In this document: positions 52,177-64,000 of the stretch, in pieces
Numbering within the stretch: the stretch's first letter is position 1
How the letters are laid out: every line of letters starts with the position of its first letter
NCBI GenBank assembly: GCA_025602905.1
Contig: JAHLKI010000003.1
Location: forward strand, 186,001 to 250,000
Origin: Phlyctochytrium arcticum
Taxonomy: Eukaryota; Chytridiomycota; Chytridiomycetes; Chytridiales; Chytridiaceae
Length of the DNA: 64,000 nucleotides
Direction: 5' to 3'
Program-made: the position numbers and the translations under genes
Notes under the pieces: model-generated
The model's database searches: none
Told to the model about the DNA's origin: nothing
Seen by the model: the letters and a program-made list of their open reading frames with translations, nothing else

Positions 52177-52225
52177 GGTTTGGAAGTAATATAGCCGTGC
52201 GAATTAGAGATTGAAAGAGCATAGT

Positions 52226-52283
52226 GTCATAGTGCATAACAAATCCCATAGTATATACTATGGGATTTGTTATGCACTATGAC
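52226..52283. repeat. Perfect 58-bp palindrome
   Basis: Two 29-bp arms meet at the centre without spacer (…CATAGTAT|ATACTATG…). It lies at the 5' end of the transposase-RecQ gene and at the transition to the AT-rich island. Could be an element terminus, a hairpin formed by fused terminal repeats, or a bidirectional regulatory site. Confidence 0.9.
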
Positions 52284-52295
52284 AGTGGCTATATA

Positions 52296-52360
52296 CCAGC
52301 TATGTGCCAGCTATGTGCCAGCTATGCGACCCAGCTATTTGCCAGCTATGTGCCAGCTAT
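52296..52360. repeat. 11-bp tandem repeat (CCAGCTATGTG)n
   Basis: About six units of CCAGCTATGTG with minor variants (CGAC, TTTG) directly after the palindrome. Between 52361 and 52551 the sequence is low in complexity (ACTAAGTACTAA-like runs near 52525-52560) with no gene recognised. Confidence 0.85.
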
Positions 52361-52551
52361 AATACTCAGGTCGCTCCATCGAACATCGAGAGTCATCTTA
52401 CAAATTATGAGTCATCCCTCTCCATTACTCATCGAGTTGTTCCGCACTCCCTACGGGACTTACGTCATTGAAAAACATCGAATTTAAAAGCCATCCAGCT
52501 CATCAAAAACAGCAAATACAAATACTAAGTACTAAATACTAAGTACTGATA

Positions 52552-52938
52552 CTAAACACTAATCCTACGTCTTTTTGCGTCCCTCTCTACATCCACCTCT
52601 ACATCTTTCCCTATATTGTCCACTACAACAACAATCGGCACTTTCTTCTTCACTTGTATATTCTTCCACCATACTTCGCTCTCCTTCAGATACATTTCTC
52701 GAATGTCCATCGGCAGTGCTGTCAAATCCACTCGCATGCAACTCCTTATTATAAACGATAGAGTCTTCGTTTCGTCTCCATCCTCCGCACTTAGCTCCCT
52801 CAACTCCAATCGCTTGAATTCACGCTTGATGTATTCGAGAGCCGACGCATGCTTCTTCACTATACGGTCGGCTTTCTTGAACTCCTCTGATTCGTTCAAA
52901 TTGATAAACTCCAATACTCGTTCTTCCAATCGCTCCAT
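52552..52938 (-). CDS. Small charged helical protein, function unknown
   Basis: 128 codons from ATG 52938 (MERLEERVLEFINLNESEEF) to 52552, no introns. Strongly helical and charged, with SALEYIKREFKRLELRELSA, a short beta-like stretch VPIVVVVDNIG and a basic end (DAKRRRISV) that may be a nuclear signal. No family recognised. It is the first open frame inside the AT-rich island, and its intron-free form matches the viral-type genes to the right more than the host genes to the left; it could also belong to the mobile DNA on its left. Confidence 0.5.
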   Translation of the reverse strand: MERLEERVLEFINLNESEEFKKADRIVKKHASALEYIKREFKRLELRELSAEDGDETKTLSFIIRSCMRVDLTALPMDIREMYLKESEVWWKNIQVKKKVPIVVVVDNIGKDVEVDVERDAKRRRISV

Positions 52939-53952
52939 TTCTAACCCGGGTTAGACTTTTGAGGGTATTGGATCCGGCCTTCCTACGGGACTTCCAATCC
53001 TTTTATAAAACATTTTCTATTATCGATAAAATTCAATTCTGTTTTATCGATAAGACAACACTTTCGCAATTCCCCATTCTGCAAAAACGTGACACTTTTC
53101 GTGACACTTTTTTTTACTCCACGTCTCGAGTCAGATACACCTTCTATTATCTATTTCCCTACACTTTACATGGAGGTGACAGTTGTGACAGTTTTTTTGA
53201 GGTAAAGTCCCTGGGGATATACGTTTTTCACTACTGAGAAGTAGTTCACCGTCTGCACTACTTTTCGCTCAAATAAAAATTTTATAAGAATCATAAACAT
53301 ACAAAAAAACTGTCACAACTGTCACGAATTTTTTTCCTTCATAGAAACACACCACAACTTTATTAATAAATTTTTATTTTACTACATGTATCGAGTGTGT
53401 CAGGCAAAGAAAAAAACTGTCACAAAAACTGTCACGGCAAAAACGTGACACTTTTTGTGACACTTTTTTTTACTCCACGTCTCGAGTCAGAGACACCTTT
53501 TATTATCTATTTCCCTACACTTTACATGGAGGTGACAGTTGTGACAGTTTTTTTGAGGTAAAGTCCCTGGGGATATACGTTTTTCACTACTGAGAAGTAG
53601 TTCACCGTCTGAACTACTTTTCACTCAAATAAAATTTTTATAAGAATCATAAACATACAAAAAAACTGTCACAACTGTCACGAATTTTTTCCCTTCATAG
53701 AAACACACCACAACTTTATTAATAAATTTTTATTTTTCTACATGTATCGAGTGTGTCAGGCAAAGAAAAAAACTGTCACAAAAACTGTCACCTTTTCAGA
53801 AAAACTGTCACCCCTCTTCATCAAACCCACTATCAATCACTTCTTCAATTCTACACCTACAAAGTATTGAGCGCCCCGAATCTTCTTTTCGGGAACTATC
53901 GGACATTGCGTCTCAGAATATAAAAGTTATTTGTTCTCAACTCAAGTAAACA
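52939..53952. other. Non-coding control-like region of the island
   Basis: No gene. Holds two palindromes TTATCGATAA (53020-53029, 53044-53053), then the 356-bp tandem duplication with GTGACA/TGTCAC hexamers, then two more TGTCAC copies near 53784-53810 and the leader of the Cys-rich gene. The density of repeated motifs suggests an origin or regulatory region. Confidence 0.5.
53081..53791. repeat. 356-bp tandem duplication with inverted hexamer clusters
   Basis: Copy A 53081-53436 and copy B 53437-53791, nearly identical (a handful of substitutions and small indels). Each copy has about eight GTGACA/TGTCAC hexamers. GTGACAGTTGTGACAG at 53176 (53532 in copy B) pairs with CTGTCACAACTGTCAC ending at 53325 (53681); with the adjoining run of T or A the arms are 24 bp and perfectly complementary, about 100 bp apart. 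Confidence 0.93.
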
Positions 53953-54285
53953 ATGAGTTATTATGTCATTTGTTCTGGTTGCTGTAACATTGAGCCTGAA
54001 TTTGGTGATATGGAATACTGCCGTTCATGCGAACGAGATTACTGCAAAAAATGTTCAGTTGTTTATCAACCTAATGATGAGGCAAATGTTTATTTTCCAA
54101 ACGGTGGTACGAACCCAAAAAGGCTACGAGAACTATTAGAATCGGAGACTCCTCCTGGATGTAAAGCTTGTCGCAAGGGACTACCGTGTTTTGATATTGA
54201 AAATAAATACTATGACAAGAAAGAATACCCGTTCCACAATAATTGGAAAGAGAAGGTTAAGAAATGGAAAGAGGATCTCCAATAG
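53953..54285 (+). CDS. Small Cys-rich zinc-binding-type protein
   Basis: 110 codons, ATG 53953, no intron. Cysteine pairs are spaced as in a treble-clef/RING-like finger: CSGCC, YCRSC, YCKKC, then after a linker CKAC and LPC. The C-terminus is charged (WKEKVKKWKEDLQ). Twelve cysteines in 110 residues suggest two zinc sites. I cannot assign a family. Intronless, with short spacing to the receiver-domain gene downstream on the same strand. An early regulatory or ubiquitin-related role would be speculation. Confidence 0.6.
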   Translation: MSYYVICSGCCNIEPEFGDMEYCRSCERDYCKKCSVVYQPNDEANVYFPNGGTNPKRLRELLESETPPGCKACRKGLPCFDIENKYYDKKEYPFHNNWKEKVKKWKEDLQ

Positions 54286-54450
54286 AAATTTCGTCAGTTG
54301 CTACCATTTCTAGTCTCTCCATTATAGAATGTTGCCAACATCTGGCAGGGAGGAGGTCAACGCTGCTCTTTTATAGACCAGAATGCGGTCAAGTCACTAG
54401 AATGTCAAAATTGTCACCTACCTTTTTGAATTTTGTGATATATATGATAA

Positions 54451-54873
54451 ATGATAATACTCATAGTAGATGATAATCCGATAGGACTGAGAATTTTAAA
54501 GAAAATGATCCGCAAATTGTTCCCTAATTTAACAACTATATTGTTCAAAAATGTGTCGAGTGCAATGGAATTCATATCAACTAATTATGAAGAAATATCA
54601 GTAGTATTTTGTGATATGTTTTTTCCTGATGAAAAAGGAAGACCAATCTTGGTAACAGATGGAGTAAATCTCATTAAAATCATAAGAGGAGTGGAGAAAG
54701 ACAAGATGTATGAAACAAAAATACAAATAATAGGTTTTTCTTCGAGTCCATTTTATGAAAAAGAAGCACATTCTGCAGGAGCCGATATGTTCTTTCATAA
54801 ACCAATTACACTAGATAATGTGAAAAGTGCTCTTCAGTTTTTAGAAAAAGAGGAACTCTTTAATTTCCTTTAA
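54451..54873 (+). CDS. Stand-alone response-regulator receiver domain protein
   Basis: 140 codons, ATG 54451 (MIILIVDDNPIGLRIL). It matches a complete CheY-like REC domain and nothing else. The acidic pair is D7-D8, the phosphoacceptor is D55 in VVFCDMFFPD, the switch Ser lies in IIGFSSS (97-98), and the Lys is K117 in FFHKPI with F115 before it. All signature positions are kept. In REC proteins a histidine kinase transfers phosphate to the central Asp. The insert after D55 (DEKGRPILVTDGVNLIK) resembles hybrid-kinase receivers. AT-rich, intronless, and among viral-type genes, so it looks like a captured signalling module; it could act on the host's phosphorelay. That role is inference. Confidence 0.85.
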   Translation: MIILIVDDNPIGLRILKKMIRKLFPNLTTILFKNVSSAMEFISTNYEEISVVFCDMFFPDEKGRPILVTDGVNLIKIIRGVEKDKMYETKIQIIGFSSSPFYEKEAHSAGADMFFHKPITLDNVKSALQFLEKEELFNFL

Positions 54874-54921
54874 ATGCGTGCGAACTTTTAAAAAAATATT
54901 AGCATTTAATAATAAAACAAA

Positions 54922-55107
54922 ATGGAAGTCGAAAAATTACTACTAAAATTAGACAAAATGTCAACAGAGCAACAAATGAAATTTTTGGAAGAAATAGAAC
55001 GTACAAAATTAGGTGACGACATTGTCAAAAGCATGAACGATTATGTTCAGCCTCCGAAAAAGCGACAACCTCGAAAACAAAAAGTTGGGGAAAAGAGTGG
55101 AAACTGA
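54922..55107 (+). CDS. Small charged protein, unknown
   Basis: 61 codons, ATG 54922. An amphipathic helix (KLLLKLDKMSTEQQMKFLEE) is followed by a basic tail (PPKKRQPRKQKVG) that looks nucleic-acid-binding or nuclear-targeting. It lies 48 bp after the receiver gene on the same strand. Too short for certainty, but its spacing and A-rich leader match the neighbours. Confidence 0.45.
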   Translation: MEVEKLLLKLDKMSTEQQMKFLEEIERTKLGDDIVKSMNDYVQPPKKRQPRKQKVGEKSGN

Positions 55108-55170
55108 TGAGTAGTGGGTGAAACGCATTGTGAAGAAAAGTCTTTATTCTTGACAATACAGTAAAAAAAG

Positions 55171-55434
55171 ATGGTACTATTTGATAATGAATCCACGACG
55201 GATGAGGATGAAATTCGTGACAAAGTCGTTGCGATTTATGAAAAAATTACTTCCCTTGATAAGAAAAGAGAATATATCGATGATTTAAGAAAAATCATCC
55301 CGGCTGTTCGAGAGGGGAATGTTCAATTCTTGGATTTATGTCTTAGAATCGCTGAAATAGAATTGCGATACAAAAATCAATTCAAAAAAAAAGCACAAAG
55401 ATATAAACGGGTTCCTGTGGACGAAGAAGACTAA
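55171..55434 (+). CDS. Small acidic/basic helical protein, unknown
   Basis: 87 codons, ATG 55171 (MVLFDNESTTDEDEIRDKVV). Largely helical, with an acidic N-terminus, a Lys/Arg-rich helix (NQFKKKAQRYKRVPV) and an acidic end. It follows the previous small gene by 63 bp on the same strand, with an A-rich leader. No family recognised. Confidence 0.5.
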   Translation: MVLFDNESTTDEDEIRDKVVAIYEKITSLDKKREYIDDLRKIIPAVREGNVQFLDLCLRIAEIELRYKNQFKKKAQRYKRVPVDEED

Positions 55435-55490
55435 AAAACACGATTCAAAAACAGCAATTTTTCATATTGTTCTTTTTGATTGAAATACTT

Positions 55491-55560
55491 GCGCAAAGAC
55501 GGAATCGAACCGCCATTTTGAGTTTGGAGGACTCAATTTCTACCATTGAAATATTTGCGC
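55491..55560 (-). tRNA. tRNA-Gly (anticodon UCC)
   Basis: A complete cloverleaf on the minus strand: 7-bp acceptor GCGCAAA/TTTGCGC, D arm TTTC-AATGGTA-GAAA, anticodon arm TGAGT-CCTCCAA-ACTCA with TCC at positions 34-36, variable loop AAAT, T arm GGCGG-TTCGATT-CCGTC (one G-T pair) and discriminator A. The B box is a perfect GGTTCGATTCC; the A box is weaker. No intron. It reads GGA codons, which suit an AT-rich genome. It lies in the viral-type island between protein genes. Confidence 0.93.
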
Positions 55561-55712
55561 TATTTAGCCTATTACATTATTACTCGGAAGAAGGCCGTTT
55601 CCGGATTTGGTGAGTTTACTCTCTATTAGAACTAAATCTCATATAAATGGGTCCAGGTGGGTTAAAAACAGTTTTAAGTCAATGTTTAGGACAATATTAT
55701 ATATAGAAAAAA

Positions 55713-56057
55713 ATGTTTCCGGCGAAACACATTCAGAAAAGAATCGAAAATATGTCTATTCTGAACATCACAAAATCTTGTAACACATGGAGTGTGCTTA
55801 CTAAAATATGTCGAGATATGCAGTTGAATGGAAAGGAATCAATCGTATTATATGTCAAGATAAACGATAACAACAGACATATGTTTAGACAAATCGCATC
55901 CATTTGTTCAAATCTTCAATTACCAAAATTCCGAAGTAATTTTAGAGATTTTTTATACGGGGGGAGTGGTTACGTAGGCATTTGTAAAGATTACTTGATT
56001 CTACGAACTGATTATAATCATCGGTTGGAAATATTGGAAATTTCAGTTATCGAGTAG
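55713..56057 (+). CDS. Small protein, unknown
   Basis: 114 codons, ATG 55713 (MFPAKHIQKRIENMSILNIT), no intron. A TATATATAG-like box lies just upstream (about 55695). The protein has mixed alpha/beta character (SIVLYVKINDNNRHMF, YVGICKDYLILRTDYNH) and a Gly-rich turn (YGGSGYVG). Not recognised. Its stop TAG (55055-base spacing aside) ends two bases before the end of the opposing fibre gene, showing tight packing. Confidence 0.5.
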   Translation: MFPAKHIQKRIENMSILNITKSCNTWSVLTKICRDMQLNGKESIVLYVKINDNNRHMFRQIASICSNLQLPKFRSNFRDFLYGGSGYVGICKDYLILRTDYNHRLEILEISVIE

Positions 56058-56058
56058 T

Positions 56059-59000
56059 CTAATATTCAAGCATTTGCATATCAATTCGACAATTAGCGTC
56101 AAACAAAAGATTAGAGCCCACCCAAGATAAAGTAAAATTATGCAACCCGAGTGCGAGTCCTGATGTAATAAACGATAAAGGGAAACGTACAATTTGCCCA
56201 GCATATCTCCAAAAAAGATAAAATGTTTTAACAACATTTCCATCAACTCGGATCGAAATATCAGTACCAAAATTGTCAGAACTGGAATATAATGCGATAC
56301 TGCCATTGAACATTTGAACTGAACGGGTTGTATTGAAAGCTTTTATGAAACCGCTAGGAATGGATGTATCACCCGGCCCTGCATTGTTCCAGATAGATAT
56401 AGCAACTGGTCGAGTAATTTCACCCCCTTTAGGGCCATCTAAGTACACACCTGAATCTGCTTTTATATACATCATGTTTTGATATGGTGGAGCGGTTGAA
56501 GTATTACCAATGCCTATGTATCCTGAGACAGTTGCATTGTCATTCTCGAATTGAATCGTGGAAAACCCATTTGCTGTTCTATTTTTTATTTTAAGAACAT
56601 TTCCTACAAAATTCGCTTGTATTACATGCGTGCTAATACTACTAATCCCAAAATCGATAGGACCGTCCGTCTTTATAGTGGAAGCACCACCGATACCACC
56701 TAATTTTAAGATTAAGGAAGAATTGTACCAACTGAGAATGCTATTGTTTGCGATAGTATCGAAAAAATGTAAATCGCCGTTGGTATGACTCGGTGTGCAT
56801 CTAAGATACATATTTCCCAAGTTGATTTGTGCATAGCCTGTAGATGGCATATTGAGGAATGTACCATTTATTGTTAAATCTCCAGTTGTAGAAAGACTCG
56901 GTAAGGTGGGTGTGGAACTCGACAAACTTGTAAGGTTGGCATGTAGAGGTTGTTTTCCAGTGAAAGATGAGAGAACCGAATTACCTGCCACAAATACATC
57001 CGTCCCTACATACAGTTTTTTAGCAACACTTGCTCCTCCAGATACTCTAAGTGCACCGGTATCTACTGCACTTGCATCTGTCGTTGGAAGGACAAAAACC
57101 GTCGTAGCATCTATCGTAAAAGCATTAATGTTGCCAATCGATGGAGCGGAACTGCCTCCAACCGTATTACTTGTATTTATGTAGAAATCAAGGGCATTAG
57201 TGAATAATTGACTTCCATGGTGGCGACTTCGAATAAAATGCTTATAGCCGCCTGTTCGATATTCAAAAATTATTCCTCCTAAATTTAACAAACCTTCTGC
57301 ATCAGCCCCTCCACCCATCGTAATCCATTTAGAAACAGCCATGCCTCCACGAACTTGAAGAGCGCCCGTGGAAACAGATGATGTGTCGGTTGTCGTTGAT
57401 ATGACTACAGAACCGTCTCCTTTTAGTTGAAGCATATGACTAGATAAACTGAAGTTGTAAAATCCGAGACTTCCGTTTCCAAGTCCACCGGTACCATTTA
57501 AACCGGCGTGGTATAACCCCCATTGCGTACTAGACGAGGTGTCGTTCATGGAAAGTATAGCATTTCCTGAAGTTGCGGAACTCGGAGCATTGATGGTAAT
57601 ACCGAGAGGTTGATTTCCCATCCCAAGATTCAATGTTAATAATTTAGAAGTCATACTCGTATCGTAACCAGTCAATTTAGTTTCGATCGGTGTTATGCGA
57701 GTATTGTAGTCACTCGTCAAAACATAGCCTGGGACACTTTCAAGTCGAGAAAAACTCAGCGAACCAACAGTGTCAGATGAAGACAAGTCGACGGTATTTT
57801 TTAAAGATAGTGAACCAAATGCAGGTTTATTTAAAACATTTACGTACTCAATAGCACCGCTCGATGCAGATAAAGACAAACCTAATGTTGTTTTAATTGC
57901 AGCGGCGTTTGAGGAATCAATTAAAGGTTGAAGTGTCGAAACGTTTACTTTACTGATGGGTAAAGTACCCACAACATAACTTGTAGACAAATCAATTATG
58001 TCTAGGTTTGATAATGCCTTCAACTGGCTTTGTCTAGTTTCAATAGGAGTGAATCTATTGTCTATAACAGTTTGTCGAGCATTATATGTAGAGAGCAATG
58101 TGTAGTTACTTAATGGAATTGCAGCAATTTGAGTATTGACATATTCTTGACTAGCAACTAACTTTGTTGTCTCGATGTATACACCGCTTGAAGAGATTCT
58201 CATAACTTCAGATAAAGTTCCACTCGACCCAGTTGAAGAAGAGAATATCATGGACGAGCCATGGTTATTATCATCTTGAATGCTAATTTGCGAAGAGAGT
58301 TTATTTGCGAATGGTGCGAATTTCAGCACTTGTGTCGAATTGGAATCCTTTGTGAGAAGGATATTGTCCACATATTTGTTGTTACTGAATCCACCAGAAA
58401 TGCCCTTGAACAATAGTACACTGGATACAGTTCCCGTTGTAGGAGAACTTTGATGACTTGTGATTAATGTTCCATTGACATAAACTGATAAAGTGTCATA
58501 AACCAATTTTATAACAACATTTGTCCAAGTGACTCGAGGTAATGAGAGCGGGGGGATAACTGACTGGTTTGTTCCTTCCGGACTTGTGATTAATGAAAAA
58601 TTCGACCAACTTGAAAAATAAACCCACCAACCCCCGCAAGAAATCTGAATCCCATCATTGTTTTGAGTTCCATAGTATAAACTTGAATTAAGAGTCCAAT
58701 AACGCCCTAGATTAGGTATCGTATAAGTCAGGGTACCTGATGAACTTGTCTGTCCAAATGCTTGTAACTGAACCCATTTGTTGGTCGAGTCGTATAAAGC
58801 GTTTCCAGTTAGTACACCACTTGGTGATCCGGAATTGAAATTTTCATTCAATAATGTTGTCGAAGTTGTGTCAACTCCTGAAAGCGAAACTGAATTAGCA
58901 ATGGTGTTTTGTTTGCTCGGTAATGCCGTGTCAATTACGAGCTGTCGAGCATCGTAAACACTTTGTGCAACAAAAGATGGCACATTTGATAACAAACTGA

Positions 59001-61652
59001 AATCCAATTTAGAGGAAGTTGTAATCAATGGATGTTTAAGAGCCATTCCCGTAGCAAAAGCTGTGTTATTCACATATCCAAGTAATGTTGATGATAAAGA
59101 CGTATGAGAAACATAAGTAGCAGGTAAATTTGCTGTAACTGCATATCCACTCAAATTGGGCGTATCCGAGATTAAACTATATGAAAGTTTGTTAGAACTT
59201 GTGAGTTATGGCTGAAAATTGTTATTGAGATTTGACTCGAGGTCATATACCAGAGCGGTAGTTAGGTCAATTGATTCTAGCAAAGGCTCAAGCAATTCAG
59301 ATGTTGTTTCAACTATTTTCGGAATGATAATTTCGGTATCATATTCGCGTAATATTTGAAGATTGACCGCTTGGTGACCGTATTCATTTTGCAATCCTAA
59401 CCATGAACACGGAGGAGGCTTATCGAATAATAGCCGCGTTGTATCACACCCAAGAGCATCTGGTAATGTTGCAATAACGACATTACTTCCTTCTTCGAGA
59501 GAAGCGGTACCATCTTCGTTATACAAACCGTTATCATCCTCATCTATTTCTTGTTTCCGCTCATGCCCCCAAATTCCAATGAATCCACCTACAAGACTCC
59601 CTCCTGTGAGAGCACCGGACAACCCACCTACGGCTCCTATAGCAGAACTTGCGATTCCTGAGATGCCAGCGCCACCGCCGAAAATGGATATTACTCCACC
59701 AAGTCCTCCTAACGCTCCAGCCAGTCCGCCACTCGATGCTATCGTAGAGCCACTGCCAGATTTGAACGTCTCTTCTGGAGTGTCGGCGTTTTTTTGCTCT
59801 GGTGGATCTTCAGCCGTCTTCTCTTGTGTAAATGTGTCAATTGTTGAGATAGTGTACCCAAGTCCCGGACTGCCGACCAAAATCACCCCTGTTCCGGCAG
59901 TCAAGGTCATTGTGTTTGATATTGTCCTGCCGACAACTGTGATCCCCGTTCCCCCTACAAGTGGTTCCTCGATTTCGGGTTCGTCCGGTTGATAAGTACA
60001 CGAAATGGTTGCCCCGGTGATGCTAATATTGGTACCAGCCACATAGGCTCCGCGAATATCATTTCCAACACGTGTGACTCCATTAGATGCTGTGAGATTT
60101 TCTGCTATGTTTGTTTTTGTCAAATTCATGGAGAGAGCACCTTCTACAGTTAAATCCAAAGTAACTTCGTGGCTGCTATTCTCGTGCAAGCCGTTTCCGA
60201 ATGTTCGAGTATCTGTCAATATTTCATCATCGAATTCGAGATTTCCTTGTGTATGAAGATCCAGGAATACCTCATTTCCATTTCTAAGTCCAAGACTGTT
60301 AATACTTTGAAAGATTAAACCAGAGGTAAGTTTACCTTCGCTATTGACTCGAATAGTTTGATTATTTACAAATGCTGAAGGATTCACACCAATATTATTG
60401 TTGAGATCCACGACAAGTGTTGCGTCGGTTCATAGAGATATTTCTCGTCGACCATTCAAAACTCCGCTGATATCTATCGCAGAACCGCTTTGGTATAATT
60501 GTTGAACATATGAACTTGTCACTGCTTCATCACTATCTGGTGAGAAATTCTGCGATAGAATTATATGCGGAACTTCTAATCGTTGAAATGTTTCATTATA
60601 AACAAATGCATCGCTCCGTCTTAATGAAGATACCCCTGAATCATATGGGACCTCTCCAATAGCGGTGGATCTAAATGACAACTTGTTCCCAGTTCGTTGA
60701 AAATTTTCATGGTCTACATCAAGTTTTACTATCGCTCCCTCGAGACTTTCAAGAGGGTCGCGATAGACACTAATCGCTCCAGCTCCTTTTAAAAGTTTTG
60801 TCGCATCTTGTGCTTTCGCAAAAAGTTTATCATCTTTGACTTCAAGCGTGTCTTCATCAATGTTCAGTTTTAGCGCACCTTCTTCATTTGTAGTGAAAGG
60901 TGGTATTGCATTTGGACAAATTCCTTGCTCGGAGATGTATAGCGGTGTTTTTAAAGTAATACCTACCGTATCGTCATCTCGATACATTGGGAACTCAAAA
61001 AGTTTTTCCTTAACTTTCAATTGTCCCCCATCAATCTCTAAAGTATCACTGTCGTATTTGATGGACAATCTATGTGAGTTAAAACTGTTGAACTCGAATG
61101 GTGGTGCAATTTTTAACTCGAGACCCTTTTCGAAAAGAGTACCGTCTTCGAATCCTCCCTCGTTGTCTTGAAAATGACTCGAGTAGCAAAGTGAACTTCG
61201 CCATCGTCATTTATGAAAAGGGGACTATCAACTTTTGGTGTTTTTTCAATTATTGATAATTTTTCTTCTTCGTTTATATATAAACATGTATCGTCATAAT
61301 TCAAAAAGACCAAGTGTTGTTCAGTCGAATATTGGAGTGGAGAATCCACATTTAAATCAACCGCTGTCAAATTCCCTTCCGGAGAAACCTGAAGACGAGT
61401 CTCATCTATCGATAATGAAAGAATTGCTTCACCGTTTTCGAGATTGGTGGATAAGGGTGCGATTGAGCTTACTTTGTTAACTTCTAATTCCCCATTTTCG
61501 TTACTAATTTTGTCTATTTCAGCCGATTTGAAGCCTGTTATTTTGTTATTACCCGAAAACCCGGTAATGTTACCCGTAATATAAGGATTTTCCAAATTGG
61601 TATCTGATAATAAGCGTAATCCTGTTGAGTTTCGTGAATTGATACCACTCAT
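56059..61652 (-). pseudogene. Giant fibre-like structural gene, broken
   Basis: One reading unit of about 1,864 codons from ATG 61652 (MSGINSRNSTGLRLLSD) to TAG 56059, interrupted by a one-base loss near 61168, an in-frame TGA at 60432-60430 and an in-frame TAA at 59208-59206. On both sides of each stop the frame and the repeat style continue. The first third has triple-beta-spiral-like repeats (LKLNIDEDTLEVKDDKLFAK; LSLSIDETRLQVSPEGNL), as in adenovirus-type fibre shafts. A Gly-rich hydrophobic stretch (GGLGGVISIFGGGAGISGIA) follows. The last 1,030 codons have repeats of DARQ.VID, DTSSVSTGALQVRGGMAVSK and VDTGALRVSGGASVAKKLYV, common in large-DNA-virus and phage tail-fibre-like proteins, plus a lectin-like domain near 58350-58800. 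The likely role is host attachment. The lesions make this copy non-functional unless stops are read through. Confidence 0.8.
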
Positions 61653-61715
61653 ATTTGTTAAAATAATGACTTTAACATATGCGAGCAAATTCTTTTCCAA
61701 TAATCCGGGCGTGAT

Positions 61716-63275
61716 TTAACGGAGACGTGCCTTTTTTTTGGGACGAGTAGCAACTGGTTCATCCACTGCTCTCCGTCGTTCTCGAATTGAAACGGTTGGT
61801 TCATTACTTTCAAAAACTAATGGAACGGAGCGTGGGGCTGTATAATCAGCAGTCTTTTTTCCTCGTAATGCCGCAAGTGGACGGAGTTGAGGTCCTCTGG
61901 GGGTGAAATCTGTTCCGTTTTCATCACCTTCTATATATGGAAGCGAGGTAGCAACGGGTGGGTCATAATTTACTCTCCGCGTCTGTCGTTGTTCTCTCCG
62001 TTGACGAATATCTCTCTCGACAATTTCGAGTGTTTGACCATTAGGAGAAAGATATTGAATGCCTTCATCAATTCTAGGTCTTTTTAAAGGTTATGTGGCA
62101 TCACCTTCATCATTTCTTTGTCGCCGTCGATTCACAGGAGGCGGGAGTTGCGGAGGAATTTCAACCTTGGGACGTTGCTTAACCACCGGTTTAAACCCTT
62201 CATATGGTTGAAATCTATTTGAATTCGATGAAGCGTTTCGGATAACACCAGGTTCACTTGGATAAAATTGTGGATTTGTTGGGACTACTTCACTACGAAG
62301 TTGATTTTCTAATACAACCTGTTTATTTTTTGGAGTTCTAGTAGGTTTCTCGATAATAGATGTTCTTCGGATACCTCTATCTCTTTGGCGTCTGATAGGT
62401 GTTTTGGCAGGAATAGAAATAAATCTATCATTGATTATATTGTCTTCAAGAATTTGTTGAAGGTCATTATTATTTCTTTCCGAACGATTATTTGCTACAA
62501 CCTCTGGAACATACTGTGTTTCATTATATTTTATATCAGGTGGTGGAGATAACGGAAAGGGACTATCATTTGGTAGCGATGGGAACGACGAAGGGAACAT
62601 ACCAGGCATTGGGAGGTCTGCTTTTGTATGGATCACATTTTCAAGTGGCGTTGTATTTCCAGTAGAGCCATACATTCTAGCCAAGCCCGAAAGCGGGTCA
62701 ACACGAATTTCTGTTTCTTTTGTTGCAATAATCGGATTACCTGATTTAGAGTTTATATTAGATGGTAACTCGACTCCTTCCGTTCCACCAGGGGGAGCCT
62801 GAAAACGAAGACCAGTCATTGCAGTAGTTTCAGCTGAATAATGATAAACGTTTCCATTATCATCAGGTATGGGCATTCTGGTTGTTGAATTGTTGGTCCC
62901 AATTGAAACATTAATTCTTCGTCGTGATGGTGTAATGCTGTCTAGGTATTTTTCCTTTTGTCTATAATCCTCTTCGGCTTTTATGTAGTCCATACCATCG
63001 CGATATGCTTTTGTCATATACTTTGAAGCAGATATACGCAATGATTCGGCGCTTGATATTGGCTTTTCATATACAGGGTCTACATAATTCTTTTTTGTAC
63101 TAAGGTCTTGATTATGTATGTTCCTGTTCCAAGAAAAAACGACTTTTGGTCTTCCAGTTTCGTCTAGTCGGTCATAGTCAAAGGCAAAACCTCATTGCCT
63201 TATTTGCAAATTTGGAATAGGTCTTTGTGCCTGATTGATTCCAGTAAATTTAAGTTTATTTGCACGATACTCCAT
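61716..63275 (-). pseudogene. Proline- and arginine-rich virion-type protein, two in-frame stops
   Basis: About 520 codons from ATG 63275 (MEYRANKLKFTGINQAQRPI) to TAA 61716, with TGA at codon 28 (63194-63192) and TAA at codon 395 (62093-62091). After each stop the same frame carries on with matching composition (GFAFDYDRLDETGRPKVVFS; LKRPRIDEGIQYLSPNGQ). The middle is disordered and rich in Pro, Asn and Arg (PMPGMFPSSFPSLPND); the C-terminus is strongly basic (RPKKKARLR), suggesting DNA binding or nuclear import. A conserved-looking motif IPDDNGNVYHYSAETT lies near 62850. No family recognised; a virion core or minor capsid role is a guess from position between fibre and packaging genes. Confidence 0.65.
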
Positions 63276-63320
63276 TTATATTATCATGTAAAAAAATAAT
63301 ATAGGTTCTTATTAAACAAT

Positions 63321-63632
63321 ATGGCTAATAAATTTGGTAATTTTTTTAATAAAGCAAAAGGTCATGCGAGAACGATTTGGAACAATGCCCCGTCCTATAT
63401 TCAAAAAGGAAGAAATTTTGCAAATTCGGCTATACTCGGTGTTCGGAAAGTCAATAATGCGATAGAAGGAGTTAATAGAGCCGTTCAAGATTCTCCTAAA
63501 CTATTTAATGAGAAGGCTAGAGGACATGCTTCGAGCTTTGTAGAAAGGACGGGGTCGGCAGTCAAACGGCTTGAAGATTTACATAAAGAGGGTGACGATT
63601 TTATTCATAAAGTTGGTCGAAATATGACCTAA
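63321..63632 (+). CDS. Small basic amphipathic virion-type protein
   Basis: 103 codons, ATG 63321 (MANKFGNFFNKAKGHARTIW), no intron. Continuous helix prediction with basic and amphipathic faces (SAILGVRKVNNAIEGVNRAV, SAVKRLEDLHKEGDDF) and a Gly/Phe-rich N-terminus. Its size and profile recall the small membrane-active or core-associated proteins of adenovirus- and polinton-type virions, but I cannot show homology. The 45-bp AT-rich gap to the divergent gene at 63275 must hold two promoters, and its stop overlaps the stop of the ATPase gene. Confidence 0.6.
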   Translation: MANKFGNFFNKAKGHARTIWNNAPSYIQKGRNFANSAILGVRKVNNAIEGVNRAVQDSPKLFNEKARGHASSFVERTGSAVKRLEDLHKEGDDFIHKVGRNMT

Positions 63633-64000
63633 AATACATAATCATGAAACCCCTTTGAATCACAATATTTATAAATCTCGTTGGCGCTTGCCCCCATTAA
63701 ATTCACATAACAAAATGAGTATTTTTCTTTTGTGCATTCTGTTAAAAATTTAAGAACTTGCTTTTCTTCCGCAAATGCGGTGGTGAGCACTTTGGCCAAT
63801 ATTCTCAAGTCTTCAGCATTGTTTTTAAAAACAATCCATTCCGTTGAACAATTTTTCTGTTTCGAAGACAATTGGGAACGAATGGCTTGACAACATACAA
63901 TGATAGAAATGTTGAAATGTCTTCCCTTTGTAAACAATTTATCCAGTTCCGTTGACAATTCTTTACTCCGAGCTCCATCAGCGGCATCGTCTATAAACAA
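63629..64000 (-). CDS. FtsK/HerA-type genome packaging ATPase (A32-like), partial
   Basis: C-terminal 123 codons; the gene enters from beyond the right edge. The first visible residues, LFIDDAADG, are a Walker B strand with two acidic residues. Next is FTKGRHFNISIIVCCQAI, the sensor-like block 'GRHxNIS' that marks A32-type viral packaging ATPases, then STEWIVFKN (arginine/sensor region position). Walker A lies outside the window. These ATPases pump DNA into capsids in large DNA viruses, virophages and polinton-like viruses. It is uninterrupted in the visible part. Stop TAG at 63629-63631 overlaps the stop of the plus-strand neighbour. Confidence 0.8.
   Translation of the reverse strand: MFIDDAADGARSKELSTELDKLFTKGRHFNISIIVCCQAIRSQLSSKQKNCSTEWIVFKNNAEDLRILAKVLTTAFAEEKQVLKFLTECTKEKYSFCYVNLMGASANEIYKYCDSKGFHDYVF

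Follow-up and report, generated by a model that had tools for sequence, protein, structure and literature searches.

An integrated Polinton-like virus of the chytrid Phlyctochytrium arcticum is bounded by terminal palindromes that may derive from fold-back hairpin telomeres

The stretch of DNA analysed here (G000:C3:186001-250000; its whole length of 64,000 nucleotides is called the window) lies in the 31.48-Mb, 91-contig genome of the chytrid Phlyctochytrium arcticum and ends in an AT-rich island of 11.8 kb. A decayed Polinton-like virus (PLV) is integrated here, and the island is its left portion. The element spans 39.26 kb (C3:238225-277483) and reaches from position 52225 of the window to beyond the window end. 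As a preliminary description made from the sequence had stated, base composition changes at the island (GC 0.488 over positions 1-52200 and 0.383 over positions 52225-64000) and the map of open reading frames (ORFs) displays closely spaced frames on both strands. The same description had placed the start of the island at about 52400; the island stands but the position does not, since the palindrome, the inverted repeat and the target duplication all set the edge at 52225. A perfect 60-bp palindrome (52225-52284) starts at this base, and an identical palindrome (C3:277424-277483) finishes the element on the right. When the stretch 52226-52285 was folded as single-strand DNA, a z-score of -13.8 was obtained. 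The left terminal inverted repeat (52225-53872) is 96% identical over 1.65 kb to C3:275805-277483 in inverted orientation and contains a 356-bp unit in 2.0 direct copies (53081-53791). The left copy of a 5-bp target-site duplication, CATAG, occupies positions 52220-52224, and the right copy stands immediately beyond C3:277483 (no strand is assigned to these terminal features). Moreover, a 277-base query made of both host flanks and one CATAG aligned over 277 of 277 positions, at 97% identity, with an empty paralogous site that carries a single CATAG (C3:738274-738550). Because of the target duplication, the 1.65-kb inverted repeats and the empty paralogous site, we regard this as a true insertion: the 39.26-kb unit was inserted as one linear piece, with a 60-bp palindrome outermost at each end.

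Terminal inverted repeats of 1.65 kb and a length within 14-40 kb, insertions included, agree with a PLV. Two Helitron-like genes (C3:252429-258017 and C3:267029-269932), both with a GC content of 0.50, were read as later insertions because this composition is host-like and because their relatives are placed elsewhere in an element on C4; this reading fits the size of 24-25 kb of three relatives (C4:875379, C4:900741 and C6:103482). The partial packaging ATPase named in the preliminary description was confirmed. Its C-terminal part lies at 63629-64000 on the minus strand and its N-terminal part at C3:250001-250357, and the best Pfam match of the window fragment is PF04665 (Pox_A32; E 3.7e-5, 23.8 bits, cut-off 22.8). 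PF04665 is also the best match of all three full-length relatives (E 3.3e-9, 1.8e-10 and 3.7e-7), with FtsK as a weak second match (E 0.011) of one of them, so an A32-like ATPase, as expected of a PLV, is present. On these Pfam matches a cellular FtsK origin was rejected, and the ATPase appears to be viral rather than cellular, as had been supposed.

Neither a capsid nor a polymerase gene was found within the window, in line with the preliminary description. To the right of position 64000, where that description had advised looking for further viral genes, the element holds a broken double-jelly-roll capsid gene, an integrase with a chromodomain and a D5-like primase-helicase, and no match to the polymerase PolB. 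The capsid gene lies about 10 kb right of the window and is broken by two in-frame TGA codons. The capsid fold was assessed on the intact protein of a sister element (C4:1124610-1125857), which is 70% identical to the longer capsid piece of the studied element; its predicted structure is a double jelly roll (pLDDT 80), as in the major capsid proteins of PLVs, and the best Foldseek match is the PBCV-1 capsid (E 3.2e-16). The integrase of 450 aa contains no stop and combines a retroviral-type rve domain (PF00665, E 4.5e-11), as found in Polintons, with a chromodomain (PF00385, E 6.6e-16). The D5-like primase-helicase (846 aa) is likewise free of stops, and its best solved relative is the primase C962R (E 3.1e-4), which we take to be a protein of African swine fever virus, a virus with hairpin DNA ends.

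The preliminary description had proposed an integrated DNA virus with a capsid, a packaging ATPase and fibres in fungal DNA, which holds; it had also matched the virus to no known group, which does not. The sister C4 capsid protein shares 67% identity with a protein of Spizellomyces punctatus and 63%, over 99% of its length, with entry P0007, the 'hexon' recorded for Powellomyces chytrid fungus MELD virus 5, and its 23 database relatives comprise six from P. arcticum, 11 from other chytrids, one from Powellomyces chytrid fungus MELD virus 5 and five unnamed ones. By these similarities the virus is of a kind already known, from the Spizellomyces PLVs and the Powellomyces 'MELD virus', and it has many relatives elsewhere in the P. 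arcticum genome, a good part of which likewise end in a palindrome. Like the studied element, these viruses have chytrid hosts and are integrated, and excerpts of PMC7805220 present the S. punctatus group as published; the main text of that paper mentions neither palindromes nor hairpins. Among the capsid matches across the genome, seven long ones at 27-28% identity each contain one in-frame TAG and one in-frame TAA, as though copies had been made of one that was already broken.

The palindromic ends are the unusual part of the element and were absent from the preliminary description. Two pattern scans of the genome yielded 51 and 49 palindromes of the same design, 100 in all, and reversed controls yielded none; 99 of the 100 were listed and analysed. 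These are symmetric up to at most six central bases in 91 cases and up to one base in 71, the arms are broken in eight, and 46 distinct sequences are represented. When distinct palindromes of the same length were compared in 64 pairs, 374 arm positions differed, and 329 of these had changed on both sides with pairing kept; the scans demand symmetry in the outer eight bases only, and those eight were excluded from this count. The outer 12 bases read TGTSAYAGTGCA in the majority of the ends read, are alike across families and are present in both arms, whereas the middle parts of the arms vary widely among families yet remain complementary. Exact 5-bp duplications were seen at 13 of the 18 palindrome pairs with flanks read (the studied element and 12 others), and mismatched pairings, used as a control, agreed in 1 of 306; the two palindromes of C28 are both left ends and were excluded from the pair count. 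Among insertions flanked by exact duplications, the shortest measures 1.7 kb (C25) and the longest 50.5 kb (C4). The insertions in C2 and C42 have a different palindrome at each end, each self-symmetric, around one shared duplication. Thus, exchange between ends is not the only source of symmetry, which is also maintained within a single end.

Several insertions show further features of their own. Short derivatives with both palindromes and exact duplications (C25:139557-141303, 1.7 kb; C7:648173-652802, 4.6 kb; C32:295777-304336, 8.6 kb) perhaps moved in trans. In the element C10:1765-24523 (L081, L082) the inverted repeats are at least 4.7 kb long (99.4% identity) and each arm contains a D5 match; C40 has capsid matches mirrored in the same way. 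At C6:103482-127750, 681 bp outside the left palindrome recur inverted and 100% identical outside the right one, and this element shows no duplication because its outside flanks are inverted identical copies. These flanks (L024:1-694 and L026:6938-7700) carry a 200-aa ORF that looks primase-like; family searches gave no match to it above the cut-off. Such inverted flanks could be an assembly fault, and the studied locus itself might be misassembled or might combine host DNA with the contig of a free virus. For the studied element the target duplication and the matching empty site led us to reject misassembly, and the 12 further pairs with exact duplications make such an artefact a negligible prospect. 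The junction of the island with host DNA, which the preliminary description had wished to see checked, is thereby secured as far as sequence allows. No free relatives were found in IMG/VR by two capsid scans and one palindrome scan, the latter covering ends that start with TGTGATAGTGCA, which is not the edge type of the studied element.

The replication genes of the palindrome-bounded elements appear to differ from those of Polintons. A search with one query, which could miss distant polymerases, gave 20 matches to protein-primed PolB (11 merged loci), none of which fell inside the 15 palindrome-bounded intervals, the studied element included. At least one D5 match was present in 9 of these 15 intervals, and the 24.3-kb C6 interval, read piecewise, contained no ORF of polymerase size besides the D5 gene, a fibre gene and an adhesin gene. 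It could be argued that these are ordinary Polintons with protein-primed PolB and that the palindromes are incidental, the more so as the immediate right-hand neighbour of the studied element carries PolB (C3:280309-283938) and adhesin genes are common to both kinds. However, the lack of PolB matches inside the intervals and the duplication length make this very improbable: the duplication is 5 bp in the studied element and in the 12 other pairs, not the 6 bp of Polintons, and 6 bp is given for the rve integrase in PMC12220804, which also allows 5-6 bp for PLVs.

We consider it somewhat probable that the palindromic ends of this integrated chytrid PLV represent fold-back hairpin telomeres that replace protein priming; as sequence the end structure is strongly supported, as mechanism less so. 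A D5-like primase without a polymerase of its own, together with palindromic ends, is what fold-back ends would lead one to expect. In the replicating virus each palindrome would fold into a hairpin in which one arm is copied from the other, and the ends would be maintained without a protein-primed polymerase: the element would use its own D5-like primase-helicase together with a polymerase supplied by the host or by another virus. For integration to follow, the hairpin would first have to be opened into a full-length duplex end, possibly when the integrase or a candidate recombinase nicks the palindrome at its inner edge and copying follows. The retroviral-type integrase would then have connected host DNA to the outer TG...CA edges of the palindromes. 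The broader proposal is that a chytrid PLV lineage dropped protein-primed replication, keeps hairpin telomeres and opens them with its own integrase or recombinase before retrovirus-like integration, with one set of enzymes for end resolution and insertion. This may be so, but we put it forward tentatively and with some doubt.

The candidate recombinase raises the question of whether another enzyme makes the ends. Its gene was located within 2 kb of an integrase match in 10 of 13 loci, mostly as open frames of 340-355 aa, and is interrupted by one TAA in the studied element. A virus-encoded telomere resolvase of the tyrosine-recombinase type, with its gene beside the integrase, might cut the palindrome centre, as TelN of phage N15 does. 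Besides the position of the gene, an R / HHS...Y pattern at its C-terminus, spotted by eye and presumably the tyrosine-recombinase motif, agrees with such an enzyme, and so does one fragment with a match to PF00589 below the cut-off (E 0.0067). An N15-like resolvase with a telRL-like site has also been reported for Ectocarpus giant viruses in excerpts of PMC13236599. At the same time, PF00589 was not found for five other copies of the candidate (whole or part), no match to a PHROG or NCBIfam integrase and no relative in the PDB was obtained, the structure model is unusable (pLDDT 38), and all six database relatives come from P. arcticum. With one weak recombinase match, the gene is at most a candidate telomere resolvase, and we judge the resolvase explanation quite unlikely. 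The Ectocarpus viruses and phage N15 resemble the present case in a long inverted repeat proposed as the end-forming site, but according to the same excerpts the site in Ectocarpus lies within the integrated virus and the enzyme there is N15-like, whereas here the outer ends are formed by the palindromes and only a candidate enzyme can be named.

The studied element has the terminal palindrome that is characteristic of hairpin-telomere replicons. The ends of parvoviruses and poxviruses are fold-back palindromes with two loop orientations; unlike the element described here, those viruses have unrelated capsids or much larger genomes and are not known to have integrase-made duplications. Both orientations of off-centre middles were found among related ends with like inner flanks, in four families: CTT in C11, C28 and C54 against AAG in C49; A in C84, C27, C29 and C45 against T in C86; T in C10 against A in C20; and A in C58 against T in C30. 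C45 and C84 have the same host flanks and do not count as independent, and the ends in C7, C23, C40 and C79 were left out of this comparison because both of their flanks are shared. These centres bear on a further explanation, in which the palindrome is a double binding site for the integrase or a replication protein, or a cruciform, kept symmetric by selection on a linear genome with open ends. The outer 12 bases, shared by the families and by both arms, and the encoded retroviral-type integrase are consistent with it, as is the equal orientation of the centre at both ends in six of six cases. However, binding alone requires neither that the mid-arm sequences diverge between families and stay complementary nor that the centres of related ends occur as reverse complements, and we hold this explanation to be rather unlikely.

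Several observations nevertheless weigh against fold-back hairpins. Selection acting on a cruciform or on a dimer binding site could likewise maintain the symmetry, and the hairpin state is deduced from integrated copies and not from free viral DNA, reads or virions. Five of the 18 pairs lack an exact duplication (C4:900741 is off by one base, and C5, C44, C8 and C6:103482 have none). Some centre differences (C34, C8) are not simple inversions, those of a single base may be plain substitutions, and CTT/AAG is the only multi-base inversion. The two ends had opposite orientations in none of the six off-centre pairs (C7, C58, C10, C25, C6:775917 with one extra base, and C8 without target duplication), whereas independent flipping predicts half; since all six agree end to end, random independent flipping of each end is not supported in its simplest form. 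Furthermore, the D5 matches of C42 and some of those of C4:1108570 are fragments. A listed palindrome is found no more than 25 kb away at only 26 of 40 D5 loci and 18 of 49 capsid loci, and also at 5 of the 11 PolB loci, these being outside the intervals. Of the 104 integrase matches, the 54 strongest entered the proximity analysis.

The remaining features of the window extend from the inverted repeat to the ATPase gene. A 128-aa ORF inside the repeat (52552-52938, minus strand) has relatives in other elements. It is followed on the plus strand by a Cys-rich ORF of 110 aa (53953-54285), which has a weak zinc-ribbon match below the cut-off and 94% identical copies in C6 and C15, and by a stand-alone response-regulator receiver domain of 140 aa (54451-54873; PF00072, E 3.4e-11). 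The receiver domain has 33 matches in the genome, and for 22 of them a capsid, D5, PolB or integrase match (54 strongest for the latter) is present no farther than 25 kb away; as a virus gene it may act on host two-component signalling. Further on are a conserved ORF of 87 aa (55171-55434, plus), a tRNA-Gly (TCC) gene (55490-55560, minus), not found in the 24 other loci of the genome examined, and a 114-aa ORF (55713-56057, plus) with a 49% identical relative in the C4 element. The long fibre-like, Pro/Arg-rich and small basic genes of the preliminary description are all present, each with relatives in other elements. They encode a fibre-like protein of 995 aa in an uninterrupted ORF (56059-59046, minus) with a weak Laminin_G_3 match below the cut-off; a Pro/Arg-rich basic protein of 308 aa (62091-63017, minus) with relatives in the C4 element; and a basic amphipathic protein of 103 aa (63321-63632, plus) with relatives (33-67%) in the neighbouring element and in those of C4 and C6. 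An adhesin gene (59206-61652, minus) is spread over three ORFs (59206-60129, 60430-60987 and 61113-61652). We rejected these as separate fibre genes, as a single 615-aa ORF in the neighbouring element matches both upstream ORFs together with residues 1-99 of the third. Just beyond the window, C3:250375-251094 is a candidate for the minor capsid (penton) protein and is conserved in C4, C6 and C15; family searches gave no match, and the name is a guess from gene order.

The neighbour directly to the right (C3:279-295 kb; L012, L015, L016) is a second element, of the Polinton type, with PolB split over two ORFs, another integrase and an uninterrupted capsid ORF of 435 aa. Between the two elements the adhesin DNA is 74% identical over 1.1 kb, whereas the capsid proteins are only 33% and the ATPase proteins 23-29% identical, a difference that we read as a sign of module exchange.

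With Polintons/Mavericks the studied element shares a double-jelly-roll capsid, an A32-like ATPase, an rve integrase and inverted repeats; it differs from them in having no PolB match inside palindrome-bounded copies, a D5-like primase-helicase instead, and a 5-bp duplication. Cryptophyte PLVs, in the excerpts of PMC12220804, likewise combine mass expansion in one host, an rve integrase or a tyrosine recombinase, inverted repeats and duplications of 4-6 bp, and the main text of that paper mentions neither palindromes nor hairpins. Both are also unmentioned in the main texts of PMC10120064, a survey that excluded fungi, and PMC4642659, and palindromes are unmentioned in PMC11071308 and PMC11071296. 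Within the open-licence PMC literature no paper on palindromic, hairpin or covalently closed ends of PLVs was found by title. The palindromic end structure looks new for this group of viruses.

We know of no description of hairpin-tipped chromosomes in this group, and to our knowledge it is an open question by what means PLVs that lack a protein-primed polymerase replicate their ends. The genome of P. arcticum makes this question testable, as it supplies about 100 natural ends in which covariation can be measured, together with clean insertions and short derivatives. If the proposed mechanism is true, hairpin telomeres would extend to small double-jelly-roll viruses of eukaryotes, and such hairpin ends would integrate in a retrovirus-like manner.

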